DNA from: a virus
Length of the DNA: 54,638 nt
IMG/VR virus record: IMGVR_UViG_3300035670_000268
Coordinates: 1 to 54,638 of that record
Reading direction: 5' to 3' (one strand)
Positions 13,763-25,550 of the stretch are shown piece after piece; positions within the stretch are counted from its first letter, which is position 1; every line of letters begins with the position of its first letter. The position numbers and the translations under genes are program-made. Below the pieces are notes generated by a model that saw only the letters and a program-made list of their open reading frames with translations, was not told the DNA's origin and made no database searches.

Positions 13763-14149
13763 CTAACGAGGTACGAACACGTCGTCTAATGACAATCCTG
13801 TTTCCGCTAGTATGCCTGCTTTGGTTTTCACTTCGAAAATCCATTCATCGGGAATGGGTAGTGTTAGGGGGTGGACAAACCGACGACCGAACGTCATCAA
13901 ACAGTACGTATCGAATTGAAACTCAGCGGAGTTCCAGACCCCCTCGCGTTCTAAGGTTTTCTCCCCTTCAAGGATCTTCTTCACGATCCCTTTTGCAAAA
14001 GGCGTGCAGCGAGGAAGCATTTTCTTTAAATACCGACACAACCACGTAGGACGGTCAAACGAAAGCTTAGCTTGCTTGGTGTTTTCATACGCGATGTGTT
14101 GTGCTAACAGAGTCGTGGTTAACAACTCTTTGGTGTTCAGTTTGCTCAC
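13763..14149 (-). CDS. Hypothetical protein, 128 aa
   Basis: GTG start at 14149 overlapping the upstream TGA (GTGA at 14146-14149), with AAAGGA 9 bases before it. Basic, helical first half (KQAKLSFDRPTWLCRYLKKM), more acidic C-terminus. No domain recognised. Confidence 0.6.
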   Translation of the reverse strand: MSKLNTKELLTTTLLAQHIAYENTKQAKLSFDRPTWLCRYLKKMLPRCTPFAKGIVKKILEGEKTLEREGVWNSAEFQFDTYCLMTFGRRFVHPLTLPIPDEWIFEVKTKAGILAETGLSLDDVFVPR

Positions 14150-14547
14150 GTCGTAAAGTCCTTTAAAGGTAAACGTGTTCCGGTGTGGGACAAGTTATCA
14201 CGAAACACCAACACCTCCACACTCCACTCCAACTGAATCAGTGAGTGTTTGGTGATTGTCGGTACGTAATACGCCACACCGTAACGTTTTGCTAAAAATG
14301 CTGCGGAGTCTGGTAATGGGTAGTTAGGGTCTTCCATCAACACAAACCCATTTGGGAGGGGTCCTAAAAGCACACCTCCTAATTCAAGGTTGATTTTGGA
14401 ATAGAGGACTTCAGAAGAAACCACTGGCAATTCCGTTTGTTTTCGTAGGTTCTCCGAGCTCACGTTTGGGTTGTGTGCCAGTAAATAGACCGGCACTTTC
14501 AACTGGCGTAGGAAGTTGTCTACTATAGCTAATTCACGTACTGTCAT
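14146..14547 (-). CDS. Hypothetical protein, 133 aa
   Basis: The frame is open from 14610, but ATG 14547 has AAGGAT correctly spaced and lies 4 bases after the upstream stop, so it is preferred. Mixed alpha/beta with hydrophobic strands (VPVYLLAHNP, GFVLMEDPNYPLP). No family recognised. Confidence 0.6.
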   Translation of the reverse strand: MTVRELAIVDNFLRQLKVPVYLLAHNPNVSSENLRKQTELPVVSSEVLYSKINLELGGVLLGPLPNGFVLMEDPNYPLPDSAAFLAKRYGVAYYVPTITKHSLIQLEWSVEVLVFRDNLSHTGTRLPLKDFTT

Positions 14548-14551
14548 TCGG

Positions 14552-15019
14552 TTATCCTTTTTGTGGGGAATCGTCAAACAACTCAGCGATCCACTTGGGT
14601 TGGTTTTCAAGTGGTGGGGTTACAAATTCTACCGGTAGGTTTAAGAACGCAGCAAACTGTTCGGAGTCCGACTTCACGATCCCTAAAGCCACTAACGTCT
14701 CACCTAACATTACACGCACCTCTTGTGGGTCGGTGGTATATAAAACCTTAGCGATGTGGTATTGTTCTTCGGTGGCGTCGTTCGTACGTACGTCAGATGC
14801 GAGGTCGTACGCAAACTCGAAGTAACGGTCAGCGACAGTCTGTTCGAGCGTCTTCAATGCCGACAGGATGTAACGCCTCATTCTGAACAGATATTGGCTC
14901 TGCAATTCTTTTAGTCGAGCTTCTTCACGAGACTTCTTTGTGAACAACCCACTGCCGAATAACCCTAAGGTACGGGTCGCTGTATTGTTTACTCTTTGGT
15001 GGTTAGGTTTGCGTTTCAT
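14552..15019 (-). CDS. Hypothetical protein, 155 aa
   Basis: Basic N-terminal 50 residues (MKRKPNHQRVNNTATRTLG, then KKSREEARLKELQ), followed by an acidic helical C-terminal region. ATGA overlap (15016-15019) with the Cys-motif gene upstream. A nucleic-acid-binding N-terminus is possible. Family not recognised. Confidence 0.6.
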   Translation of the reverse strand: MKRKPNHQRVNNTATRTLGLFGSGLFTKKSREEARLKELQSQYLFRMRRYILSALKTLEQTVADRYFEFAYDLASDVRTNDATEEQYHIAKVLYTTDPQEVRVMLGETLVALGIVKSDSEQFAAFLNLPVEFVTPPLENQPKWIAELFDDSPQKG

Positions 15020-23392: not shown

Positions 23393-24097
23393 TCAGTTTT
23401 TTGTTTGTACGTAACGGTCTAACAGTTCCCAATTCAATGGCGTATACAAAGGTTCTATTTGTAACCCTTCTTTACTGAACGTGAGTACCTGCCCTTTGTG
23501 TTTCTCTATCAGCCCTAATTCGGCTTTCCCTAGTATCCGGTGTTCCTTTTTATACACCGAGTATTTCTTCCATCGAGCTTGCATTTTCTTTTTATCTCTG
23601 GTGTCCTTAAAGTCTCCAGCAAAGAAGCTCTGGAATAAACCCAACTTTGCTGTAGGTAAACCACACACCCGCACCACGGCTTCTGACTGTTGGACAAAGA
23701 CTTGATCTACAGCCTGTTCTTTTAACGCCTCGAGGTGTTCTACTAATTGTCCTTCTGCGTCTTTAAAAACCTTCAGTACTTTCCCTACCGTAACACGCTC
23801 CCCTACGGTTTCTGTTAAACGTTTCGCTAGACTCCCCATGCGTTTATACAACAATGAAACGTCCTCCACCAACAAGTGTTCAAAGAACGCAACCTGCGAG
23901 CAGCTAGACGTATTCCCAAACGACTGCGTGTACGTAAGGTCTGGGTGATACAACACTTGTAGACAGGCAGATATTTCTTTTGGGGAGATTCCTAATTCTA
24001 CTTTCATGTATTTACGGATCTGTTTGTTCAGTAACTTATCGAATACCACGACTGGTTCTTTATGACTGTAGTCTCCGTATTTCATCACTCTACGCAT
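23393..24097 (-). CDS. Hypothetical basic protein, 234 aa
   Basis: Helical and basic (RWKKYSVYKKEHRILGKAELGLIEKHKG), with a cluster HPDLTYTQSFGNTSSCSQVAF. Could bind nucleic acid. First gene of its operon; the promoter element copy 2 is about 35 bases upstream. The SD (AAAGG) is weak; ATG 24085 is an alternative start. Confidence 0.6.
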   Translation of the reverse strand: MRRVMKYGDYSHKEPVVVFDKLLNKQIRKYMKVELGISPKEISACLQVLYHPDLTYTQSFGNTSSCSQVAFFEHLLVEDVSLLYKRMGSLAKRLTETVGERVTVGKVLKVFKDAEGQLVEHLEALKEQAVDQVFVQQSEAVVRVCGLPTAKLGLFQSFFAGDFKDTRDKKKMQARWKKYSVYKKEHRILGKAELGLIEKHKGQVLTFSKEGLQIEPLYTPLNWELLDRYVQTKN

Positions 24098-24616
24098 GGT
24101 ACGTATACCTTTGATTGATTGTCTCTACCTGTATATTAAATACCTGTAATTCTTTCCAGACCGCATAGACGGGAGGGGTGTGTCCCCTCCCTCTTAGCTA
24201 CTGGACTCTCGTCTTAGGAGAAGGGTAGTGGGTGTAAGCACCCACGCTACTCCTGTCTGTCTAGAGAGAGTACTACCTCTCTCTAGGGATAGGGATGGTG
24301 AGTGTCTGGACACTCACACTACTGAAGGATACTGTCTGTATTATGACAGACAGTTCTCTCTCCTGTATCTGTAGATACAGGGAATAAGGATATCGTTCAT
24401 AGAGAGGATAAGGAAGTCATTCACTACGTTCATTCCTCTATACCTTATCTCTCTATTCTCTCTACTATATTAACTAATAGTTACACACACAAAAAGCCCC
24501 ACCCCAACCCCTCCCATTGCTGGAAAGAGGCAGTAGTCAGTGACTACATAGTATACGTAGACTCAGTGTAAAAAATAACTATTCTTTGATACAAAGAGTA
24601 GTGAGCGAGGTGTGTG
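24098..24616. other. 519-base non-coding interval with a tandem array of hairpins
   Basis: The longest gene-free stretch in the window, between divergent units. I count nine hairpins: 24171-24191 (8 bp, loop TGTGT); 24225-24250 (7+3 bp, loop TAAG); 24261-24286 (10 bp, loop TACTAC); 24298-24317 (8 bp, loop CTGG); 24331-24354 (9 bp, loop ATTATG); 24362-24381 (8 bp, loop TGTA); 24399-24456 (14 bp with one bulge, 29-base loop); 24533-24547 (6 bp, loop AGT); 24579-24601 (10 bp with one G-U, loop ATA). The stems differ in sequence, so this is not a simple repeat. A C-rich tract lies at 24497-24525. The last hairpin ends just before the SD of the 24617 gene. No open frame here looks real. Confidence 0.75.
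24132..24157 (-). promoter_or_regulatory. Leftward promoter element, copy 2
   Basis: Leftward strand GAATTACAGGTATTTAATATA, sharing the exact word AGGTATTTAATAT with copies 3 and 4. It lies between the hairpin array and the 234-aa gene. Confidence 0.65.
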
Positions 24617-24877
24617 ATGCAACAATCTGTAACCATTCCTGCGAATGGGTATATAAAGGTTTTAGTGAACGTACGTCCTGGTGCTGTGTTCTCTGTAGTG
24701 CCTGGTGTAGGAGGACACATGCACGTCGAGTTCACGGTAGTCGACGGAGGACATCGATATCTGTGGGATAAAGCGAGTGTAAACAGTCCTACGTGGCATG
24801 TGGTAGACTGTCCTATGGCTGAAGTGTATGTAAAGGCAGACGTAGCTGCTGGTGTATTTGAATGGAGAAACCCATGA
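24617..24877 (+). CDS. Small beta-rich protein upstream of endolysin
   Basis: 86 aa. ATG 24617 (an in-frame GTG sits one codon earlier) has GCGAGG 6 bases upstream. Composition is Val/Gly-rich with no TM or signal, resembling small virion decoration or fibre domains (IPANGYIKVLVNVRPGAVFS). Its TGA overlaps the endolysin ATG (ATGA, 24874-24877), so the two are co-translated. Not a holin, since it lacks a membrane helix. Function unknown. Confidence 0.65.
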   Translation: MQQSVTIPANGYIKVLVNVRPGAVFSVVPGVGGHMHVEFTVVDGGHRYLWDKASVNSPTWHVVDCPMAEVYVKADVAAGVFEWRNP

Positions 24878-25485
24878 AACAACCGTTAACGAAGAATGAA
24901 TGTATCCACGAAGTCGTGGTGGTAGAAGGTGGGTACGTGGATGACCCGAATGACTTAGGGGGAGAGACCAACTATGGGATCACCAAAGAGACAGCAATGA
25001 AGTACAAACACTGGTGGGCTCACTACAAGTGGGACGGAAACATGCGGACAATGCCAGTGGATTTTGTGTATGCGGTGTATGACGTGGAGTATTGGCAACG
25101 TTTGAACTTAGACACCATCGCAAAACGCTCTGTAACGCTCGCTAGTCGATTATTTGACTTTGGTGTGAATGCTGGTATAGCTAACGCAGCACAAGCGCTA
25201 CAACGCAGTTTAAACGTGTTAAATAAGCAGGGTACTTTGTATCCTGATATTGAGTTAGGGACGATCATTGGTCCTGTGACTCTAAAAGCGTTTGAAGGGT
25301 ATGCGAATACCGTGACGAAAGACTCAGCTGGGTTTGAGAAACTGACGTTGATGATCTACGGTTTACAGATCGCACACTACGTGAAGATCTCGGAAGAGCG
25401 TCAGAAGAACGAAGACTTTACACGGGGGTGGGTGAACCGTGTATGGAAAGCATTCTGGAATTACGCGGAGTGGTTGACACCTTAG
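24874..25485 (+). CDS. Endolysin, glycoside hydrolase family 108 with peptidoglycan-binding domain
   Basis: 203 aa. Residues 9-40 show VVEGGYVDDPNDLGGETNYG, the GH108 (DUF847) signature, with E18 as predicted catalytic acid in EGGY. These enzymes act as N-acetylmuramidases on peptidoglycan. Residues about 90-200 (RLFDFGVNAGIANAAQALQR, then IGPVTLKAF) match the peptidoglycan-binding domain that follows GH108. There is no signal peptide or SAR helix, so release needs a holin. The start is ATG 24874 (GGAG 6 bases upstream, ATGA overlap) rather than the in-frame ATG at 24862. Confidence 0.92.
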   Translation: MKQPLTKNECIHEVVVVEGGYVDDPNDLGGETNYGITKETAMKYKHWWAHYKWDGNMRTMPVDFVYAVYDVEYWQRLNLDTIAKRSVTLASRLFDFGVNAGIANAAQALQRSLNVLNKQGTLYPDIELGTIIGPVTLKAFEGYANTVTKDSAGFEKLTLMIYGLQIAHYVKISEERQKNEDFTRGWVNRVWKAFWNYAEWLTP

Positions 25486-25490
25486 GTGTA

Positions 25491-25523
25491 GCATAGAGGG
25501 AGGCGTAAAGCCTCCCTCTATGC
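25491..25523. terminator. Bidirectional terminator between endolysin and tail-fibre cluster
   Basis: A perfect 14-bp stem GCATAGAGGGAGGC / GCCTCCCTCTATGC with a GTAAA loop between converging units. One of the GCATA-flanked terminators of this genome. Confidence 0.9.
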
Positions 25524-25550
25524 TGGGTTTGTAACCAAGATACGAACTCG

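Follow-up and report, generated by a model that had tools for sequence, protein, structure and literature searches.

GOLLD and ROOL RNAs occur in phages. At origins that are primed by a transcript, such as oriF and oriG of T4 and the RNA II system of ColE1, a promoter, a structured transcript and a G-rich stretch are found together. For jumbo phages few noncoding RNAs are known, and the accessible text of recent reviews is nearly silent about them (nothing in one, a sentence in another). In phiKZ, according to the accessible part of the report, two noncoding RNAs were found by Grad-seq, one of about 100 nt between PHIKZ298 and PHIKZ297, and one of 180 nt from the 5' UTR of p40 (PMC8545117). 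GOLLD, ROOL and OLE are likewise described, in the part of the source at hand, as large structured RNAs of bacteria (PMC12286853). Here we describe a hairpin-rich locus of a virus related to Aeromonas jumbo phages, and compare it with these systems.

The locus lies in a stretch of 54,638 nucleotides (the window), which corresponds to positions 105490-160127 of a 233,377-base IMG/VR virus contig with one mismatch. Among the 256 predicted proteins of the contig, 54 match AhC3_1, 57 match ZPAH34 and 62 match PS2, with a mean identity of about 27%. AerS_266, which has its closest likeness to ZPAH34, is phiKZ-like and has chimallin and PhuZ, as stated in the accessible text (PMC10673249). By direct reading of the window, a non-coding interval of 519 bases extends from the start of a minus-strand gene at 24097 to the ATG of a plus-strand gene at 24617. 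The original prediction, made from the window alone, had placed nine stem-loops within 430 bases of this interval, and all of them were located (Table 1). Six, between 24171 and 24381, are perfect stems of at least 7 bp with loops of 3-8 bases; the other three are the long, bulged core hairpin, the first small hairpin and the hairpin beside the plus-strand gene. This number is far above chance: 1000 dinucleotide shuffles of the 516-base interval gave a mean of 0.303 perfect stems and a maximum of 3, and the array has 50 stem base pairs, where 500 shuffles averaged 2.4 and never exceeded 18. The array is also the densest 430-base stretch of the parent contig, with 6 stems against 4 in the non-overlapping runner-up. 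Because three IMG/VR contigs beyond the window's own record are 100% identical over 6.6 kb at this locus, an error of a single assembly is excluded. The words predicted to pair with each other are present as described, CTGTCTGT at 24253-24260 and 24332-24339 and ACAGACAG at 24346-24353, and the last hairpin was correctly seen to adjoin the Shine-Dalgarno-like sequence (GCGAGG, three bases on) of the gene before the endolysin. The array was also rightly distinguished from CRISPR and tRNA arrays, as the window has no tRNA genes and 24000-24800 no regular repeat family.

Table 1. Features of the hairpin locus, in positions of the window
Feature	Position	Strand	Evidence or remark
Proposed structured noncoding RNA	24165..24552 (approximate, inferred ends)	- (5' end right)	z -7.48 vs -3.73 on plus; homologous loci in nine named Aeromonas phage records
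AT-rich promoter-like box TATACTATGTA, at RNA 5' end	24542..24562	-	Conserved, relatives have TATATTATATGTAATTG or TATACTATGTAATTG; putative promoter
First small hairpin, GTAGTC-ACT-GACTAC	24533..24547	-	Where relatives have the long 5' rod; putative correspondence
G-rich tract GGGAGGGGTTGGGGTGGGG, G-quadruplex-type motif	24497..24515	-	Relatives have an aligned G-rich tract in the same place
Small hairpin between G tract and core hairpin, TAACT-ATT-AGTTA	24471..24483	-	Tentative positional counterpart of relatives' domain II
Core hairpin (domain III)	24399..24456	-	Conserved in homologous loci; covariation in hand alignment, RNAalifold of relatives, model R1 61.4 bits, same RNA fold
Tip GAATGAACGTAGTGAATGA	24417..24435	-	Tandem G.A pairs around two Watson-Crick pairs, closed by C-GTA-G
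Hairpin, stem 8 (9 with a 2-base loop)	24362..24381	.	No counterpart seen in relatives
Hairpin, stem 9	24331..24354	.	No counterpart seen in relatives
Hairpin, stem 8 (9 with a 2-base loop)	24298..24317	.	No counterpart seen in relatives
Hairpin, stem 10	24261..24286	-	Tentative counterpart of relatives' domain IV; resembles CF8 best
Hairpin, perfect 7-bp inner stem 24228-24245 with bulged extension	24223..24252	.	
Leftmost hairpin, stem 8	24171..24191	.	
Hairpin beside plus-strand gene	24578..24602	.	Outside the proposed RNA

Homologous loci were found in Aeromonas jumbo phages. By blastn, all or most of 24408-24442 was matched in Ferozepurvirus phages with 91-97% identity over 31-35 bases, and the match in AhC3_1 was 83% over 71 query bases. 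Five of the six match places inspected are annotated as intergenic, and that in ACP1 overlaps a small annotated gene. When the first matched regions were used for searching, full loci were reached in AhC3_1, ZPAH34, AerS_266, CF8, PS1, PS2, pAEv1810, AVP1 and ACP1; in the last five of these the full locus is located elsewhere in the genome than the first blastn match. Two candidates from SXP01 were discarded, an intergenic piece that aligns solely at a C-rich stretch, and a match of the core RNA model R1 (E 0.015) that lies inside coding sequence. The relatives share a common order, from right to left, of AT-rich box, minus-strand G-rich tract, small hairpin, core hairpin and, close to the left gene, a last hairpin. 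The window has the box, the tract, the small hairpin and the core in the same order, with a tentative match to the last hairpin. A long 5' rod closed by GTAATTGG/CCAATTAC is present in all seven aligned relatives (AhC3_1 minus one closing pair) and absent from the window, which is for this reason regarded as a divergent relative and not as a full member. The alignment that includes the window gives a weak consensus of -5.0 kcal/mol with an unfavourable covariation term, and the window has the core hairpin with the invariant ATGAACGNAGTGA tip and the covarying outer stem. The case for counting the window among these loci is made chiefly by the core hairpin, and beyond it by the box, the G tract and the order of elements.

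The 8-base arm of the outer stem of the core reads ATAGAGAG in the window, TGATTAGG in AhC3_1, GTATATGG in ZPAH34 and AerS_266, ATATATGG in CF8, and TATGATGG in PS2 and pAEv1810. In a hand alignment of seven rows including the window, 55 of the 56 cells of this stem are Watson-Crick pairs; the near copies PS1, AVP1 and ACP1 were left out, and one bulged base at a time was taken out manually, from the outer stem in AhC3_1, PS2 and pAEv1810, from the inner stem in ZPAH34, AerS_266 and CF8, and from between the stems in five rows. The outer stem is the clearest case of sequence changing under a kept structure, and the window is included in it. On the minus strand the tip reads GAATGAACGNAGTGAATGA, in which self-pairing can give G.A, A.G, A-T, T-A, G.A, A.G, A-T and C-G around a GNA loop, and in the RNA fold of the window piece 2x2 internal loops lie between the Watson-Crick pairs of the tip. 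Unusual stability is a property of C-GNA-G loops and of tandem G.A pairs in such a context. Two T-A pairs replace the outer two G.A pairs in ZPAH34, AerS_266 and CF8, with one more mismatch beside them in each of the latter two phages, and in PS2 and pAEv1810 the differences lie outside the inner tip. An invariant tip on changing arms might be a protein-binding site, although this is a guess.

The perfect hairpins of the window fold on both strands (whole-interval z -5.05 on plus and -7.24 on minus, 100 shuffles each), so the window alone cannot tell the strand. Trimmed loci of the window and six of the nine named relatives were compared, with 60 shuffles for each. The minus-strand z values were -4.66 for ZPAH34, -7.30 for AerS_266, -5.71 for CF8, -4.78 for AhC3_1, -5.70 for PS2 and -6.16 for pAEv1810, and the plus-strand values were -1.76, -2.30, -4.14, -2.48, -2.99 and -1.89, respectively (the window is given in Table 1). 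In 7/7 loci the minus strand thus outdoes both its shuffles and the plus strand in folding. As a control, six of the seven other predicted gaps longer than 300 bases in the contig gave z values from -3.24 to +0.70 in twelve tests. The non-homologous SXP01 piece also folds well (-6.09 and -8.73 for its two strands), and therefore z alone proves little about homology or function.

The RNAalifold consensus of seven relatives has -32.6 kcal/mol and 61 pairs on the minus strand, against -14.15 kcal/mol and 31 pairs on the plus strand. The minus-strand helices contain 92 G-T cells versus 7 A-C cells, an excess that is supporting and not independent evidence, because RNAalifold favours wobble pairs and so inflates the count. 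Over the 61 consensus pairs, 93.2% of 411 cells are paired, compared with 84.2% in shuffles. Changes on both sides were found in 19 of the 61 pairs (12.3 in shuffles) and in 40 cells (17.2 in shuffles), and the covariation is 0.328 versus 0.186. None of 500 shuffles reached any of these values; the number of further pair types is weaker, being reached by 22/500. When the partners were slid by 1-3 columns, 38-59% of cells were paired. This alignment consists of seven homologs without the window, from three lineages and with near copies included, so that its cells are not independent events. The compensating changes that the original prediction proposed to look for in related intergenic loci are thus present, both in the hand alignment and in the RNAalifold consensus. 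The comparison shows that the relatives' loci are homologous and minus-strand preferring, with covarying helices, and of the roles first suggested for the array, that of a structured RNA gains from both properties.

R1 was built on eight rows and searched against 15 records. One match of 61-77 bits was obtained in each of ten, namely the nine named Aeromonas phages and the window's contig, and the next best match had 33.1 bits. No match of at least 61 bits was present in LAh10, SXP01, phiR1-37, Huxley or the L005 contig. The eight rows came from eight of the ten positive records, and the new ones are PS1 and AVP1, both close kin. The LAh10 match (E 0.025) has the tip, as do the second copies in CF8, AhC3_1 and the PS2 group; all were treated as a shorter related module rather than as the RNA itself. 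In LAh10, CF8, AhC3_1 and PS2 this module lies between genes, and a G run such as GGAATGGGGTAGGGGGCTTTA accompanies it in LAh10 and AhC3_1.

The tip itself is spread more widely. The pattern ATAANGN{0,8}AYTCACTNCGTTCAT occurs in 31 viral-contig stretches, three of which are the window's virus, and in 40 bacterial-genome stretches. In its 44 distinct matches each outward position is Watson-Crick in just 8-21, and 68 other loci with the core string reach at most 25.5 bits with R1. Two exact-pattern scans of viral contigs matched the window's virus alone, and one scan of bacterial genome contigs with the strict pattern gave no match. The near-palindrome GANNGAACGNAGTGANNGA recurs across many unrelated viral contigs, at times as the loop of longer stems. 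Its NN positions are complementary in 49 of the 95 distinct matches listed (loci L112-L212, in other viral contigs, with kinship among contigs left in), compared with a mean of 12.4 and a maximum of 24 in 2000 shuffles, and a perfect outer stem of at least 4 pairs directly flanks 11 of the 95 matches listed. From its sequence, the tip motif seems to behave as a small, widely recurring hairpin, and it is insufficient alone to define the locus. A search of the open-licence literature with the motif string returned no related paper by title, and neither non-coding elements nor promoters are mentioned in the accessible open-licence text of the AhC3_1, AerS_266 and ZPAH34 papers.

The genes on both sides of the locus are annotated on the minus strand in 9/9 named relatives. 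Flanking genes were compared in seven of the ten phages (PS1, AVP1 and ACP1 were left out). The first left gene is related among AhC3_1, AerS_266 and ZPAH34 (22-59%), and not to that of CF8, PS2/pAEv1810 or the window; AerS_266, ZPAH34 and PS2 have related second left genes (23-67%). The right genes are related in AhC3_1 and ZPAH34 (66 aligned residues), in AerS_266 and CF8, and in PS2 and pAEv1810, and in no other pair. The neighbour genes of the window match those of no named phage compared. Among the named phages the neighbourhood is thus shared in part, and some linkage exists between the RNA and its flanking genes. The protein of the window's left gene had no match in phage records, and this gene and the small right gene had no relatives beyond the identical contigs. 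The endolysin has one relative, 42% identical, on the L005 contig, which is without an R1 match. PS1 has a hypothetical protein annotated on a minus-strand frame across the 5' domain. Frames related to it are open in PS2, ZPAH34 and AerS_266; pAEv1810, AVP1 and ACP1 have a different frame there, and no frame of the PS1 type with at least 35 codons is open in CF8, AhC3_1 or the window.

Since the flanking genes change more than the RNA, the RNA most likely acts in its own right instead of serving a single gene as leader. The AhC3_1 genome has a repeated promoter-like motif, TAGATATTATCT, in the space that separates the RNA from the left gene, and this motif and the pattern of neighbour genes together make us lean tentatively to an RNA of its own. 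Within 23950-24950 no intrinsic terminator was found left of the locus. The AT-rich box has one exact copy per genome in the four genomes scanned, and is therefore no general phage promoter. Apart from the locus, the repeated AhC3_1 motif (CCATAAATTTTCAGATAGATATTATCT type) was seen about 16-150 bases before genes, for example at 99828, 181488 and 220740, and similar promoter-like pieces occur in other jumbo phages; that of Huxley lies in the gap after the capsid gene, 34 bases ahead of the gene that comes next. A palindrome of about 35 bases at 25490-25525 of the window lies between the convergent endolysin and the next minus-strand gene, and has further copies in the parent contig, at 24.7 kb and 33.65 kb, each likewise between convergent predicted genes; it is probably a two-way terminator. 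The parent contig also encodes, at 13795-14934, an SbcD-like protein of a family annotated as palindrome-specific endonuclease, despite the palindrome-rich locus.

We estimate the probability at about 0.6 that the array represents, in a hairpin-rich form particular to this phage, a conserved structured noncoding RNA from the minus strand, which is an RNA of its own rather than one gene's leader. Transcription would start near 24545 and proceed leftward to about 24165, and the predicted minus-strand RNA, of about 330-450 nt, would begin near TATATTATATG. The conserved centre would be the bulged core hairpin with the tandem G.A tip and the GNA loop, surrounded by a 5' domain with the G-rich strand and by further hairpins. 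Such an RNA may function as a protein-binding or ribonucleoprotein RNA, either as its own transcript or, if it is released in this way, after being cut from a 5' leader.

The main rival of the structured-RNA reading is a replication origin, in which the minus-strand transcript with its G-rich stretch would form an R-loop that primes DNA synthesis, and the RNA structure would serve this priming. The occurrence of one full locus per genome in all ten records agrees with an origin, and so do the AT-rich right end and the G-rich strand downstream of the promoter-like box. On neither strand of the 233-kb contig is there, besides this tract, another motif of four G runs that are three or more bases long (gaps 1-7); ZPAH34 has two such motifs, one of them at the homologous place, and the AhC3_1 and PS2 loci have none. 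In the window's phage the locus sits elsewhere among the conserved gene clusters than it does in AhC3_1, ZPAH34 and PS2, with synteny broken there, which is also compatible with an origin. However, the cumulative GC skew is near-monotonic in four genomes and has no turn at the locus, though gene orientation could mask one, and no origin-type repeats were seen. A shorter second copy of the tip in seven of the nine named relatives also speaks against an origin, which we consider improbable.

The left hairpins could instead be neutral or selfish palindromes of one lineage, with function confined to the core and the right part. No perfect stem in 24171-24381 has a convincing counterpart in the relatives, with a single tentative one (Table 1), and at the position of the left stems the relatives have a pyrimidine-rich AT stretch on the plus strand. 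On the other hand, such a density of stems is found nowhere else in the 233-kb contig, and perfect stems would presumably be lost soon if they were neutral, and we hold it quite unlikely that the left hairpins are of this kind. The proposal that structure outlasts sequence is borne out for the core hairpin and the relatives' loci, in which compensating changes are found; the hairpins left of 24381, which have no clear counterpart in the collections searched, give no basis for judging it. Our preferred view is that this lineage rebuilt the RNA around its conserved core and so gave rise to the array, and this is the weakest part of our argument.

A structure at the DNA level was also considered, in which the hairpins are extruded from the duplex, for example as an N4-like hairpin promoter or as a packaging or resolution site. 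The promoters of the N4 virion RNA polymerase have, as the accessible text describes them, three-base loops with a sheared G.A pair (PMC4496689), and the complementary positions of the tip motif in unrelated viruses could fit a DNA structure. Against this, the relatives' helices are rich in G-T pairs, which serve one strand only, and the DNA fold of the core is without the tip, though the DNA energy model gives no credit to G.A pairs. Moreover, the phage encodes RNA polymerase subunits of the multisubunit type: several PHROGs families of 'RNA polymerase beta subunit' were found among ten contig proteins scanned, along with two DNA polymerase families and a helicase. Extruded DNA hairpins are, in our judgement, very unlikely. 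A plus-strand leader that controls the small right gene and the endolysin, as had been suggested from the window, has hardly any chance of being correct, because, although the last hairpin adjoins the Shine-Dalgarno sequence of the 24614/24617 gene and the plus strand of the window beats shuffles over the whole as well as the trimmed interval, the plus strand folds worse than the minus strand in every locus compared, the right genes of 9/9 relatives are minus-strand and annotated as hypothetical proteins, those compared being unrelated to the window's, no endolysin is annotated within 2-3 kb around the relatives' loci, and no sigma-70-type promoter was found on either strand of 23950-24950.

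Beyond the conserved structured RNA, a wider and rather doubtful reading may be offered. The loci may represent a class of trans-acting RNA of about 350-450 nt in phiKZ-like, probably nucleus-forming Aeromonas phages, used in or at the phage nucleus (for example as a scaffold, or in packaging or replication), and its protein-binding G.A/GNA tip may also have arisen in many unrelated viruses. If this trans-acting reading is true, the RNA was kept through deep protein divergence and genome rearrangement. An RNA that is supported by covariation and persists amid protein divergence is a concrete target in culturable Aeromonas phages such as PS2 and ZPAH34, and the tip lets a short near-palindrome, found repeatedly in unrelated viral contigs, be read as a structure.

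Compared with the known systems, the Aeromonas locus resembles transcript-primed origins in its promoter-like box, predicted structured transcript and G-rich stretch. Its RNA is presumably smaller than GOLLD, ROOL and OLE and of another architecture. It also differs from these in that neither the window nor the seven relatives' loci have a match in Rfam 15 at the gathering score; the window piece has four weak matches, up to E 5, all far under that score. The N4 promoter, in the accessible description, is a short DNA hairpin read by a T7-like polymerase (PMC4496689), and the Aeromonas tip shares with it a three-base loop able to form a sheared G.A pair; unlike it, the Aeromonas locus, of which each genome has one, contains a long hairpin with bulges and tandem G.A pairs, and its other helices include wobble pairs. 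As far as the phiKZ RNAs are described in the accessible text, they are alike in being structured and noncoding and in coming from a jumbo phage of the phiKZ type, in one case out of a 5' UTR (PMC8545117). Each of the phiKZ RNAs has two stem-loops in 100-180 nt, whereas the Aeromonas locus has several domains in about 330-440 nt.
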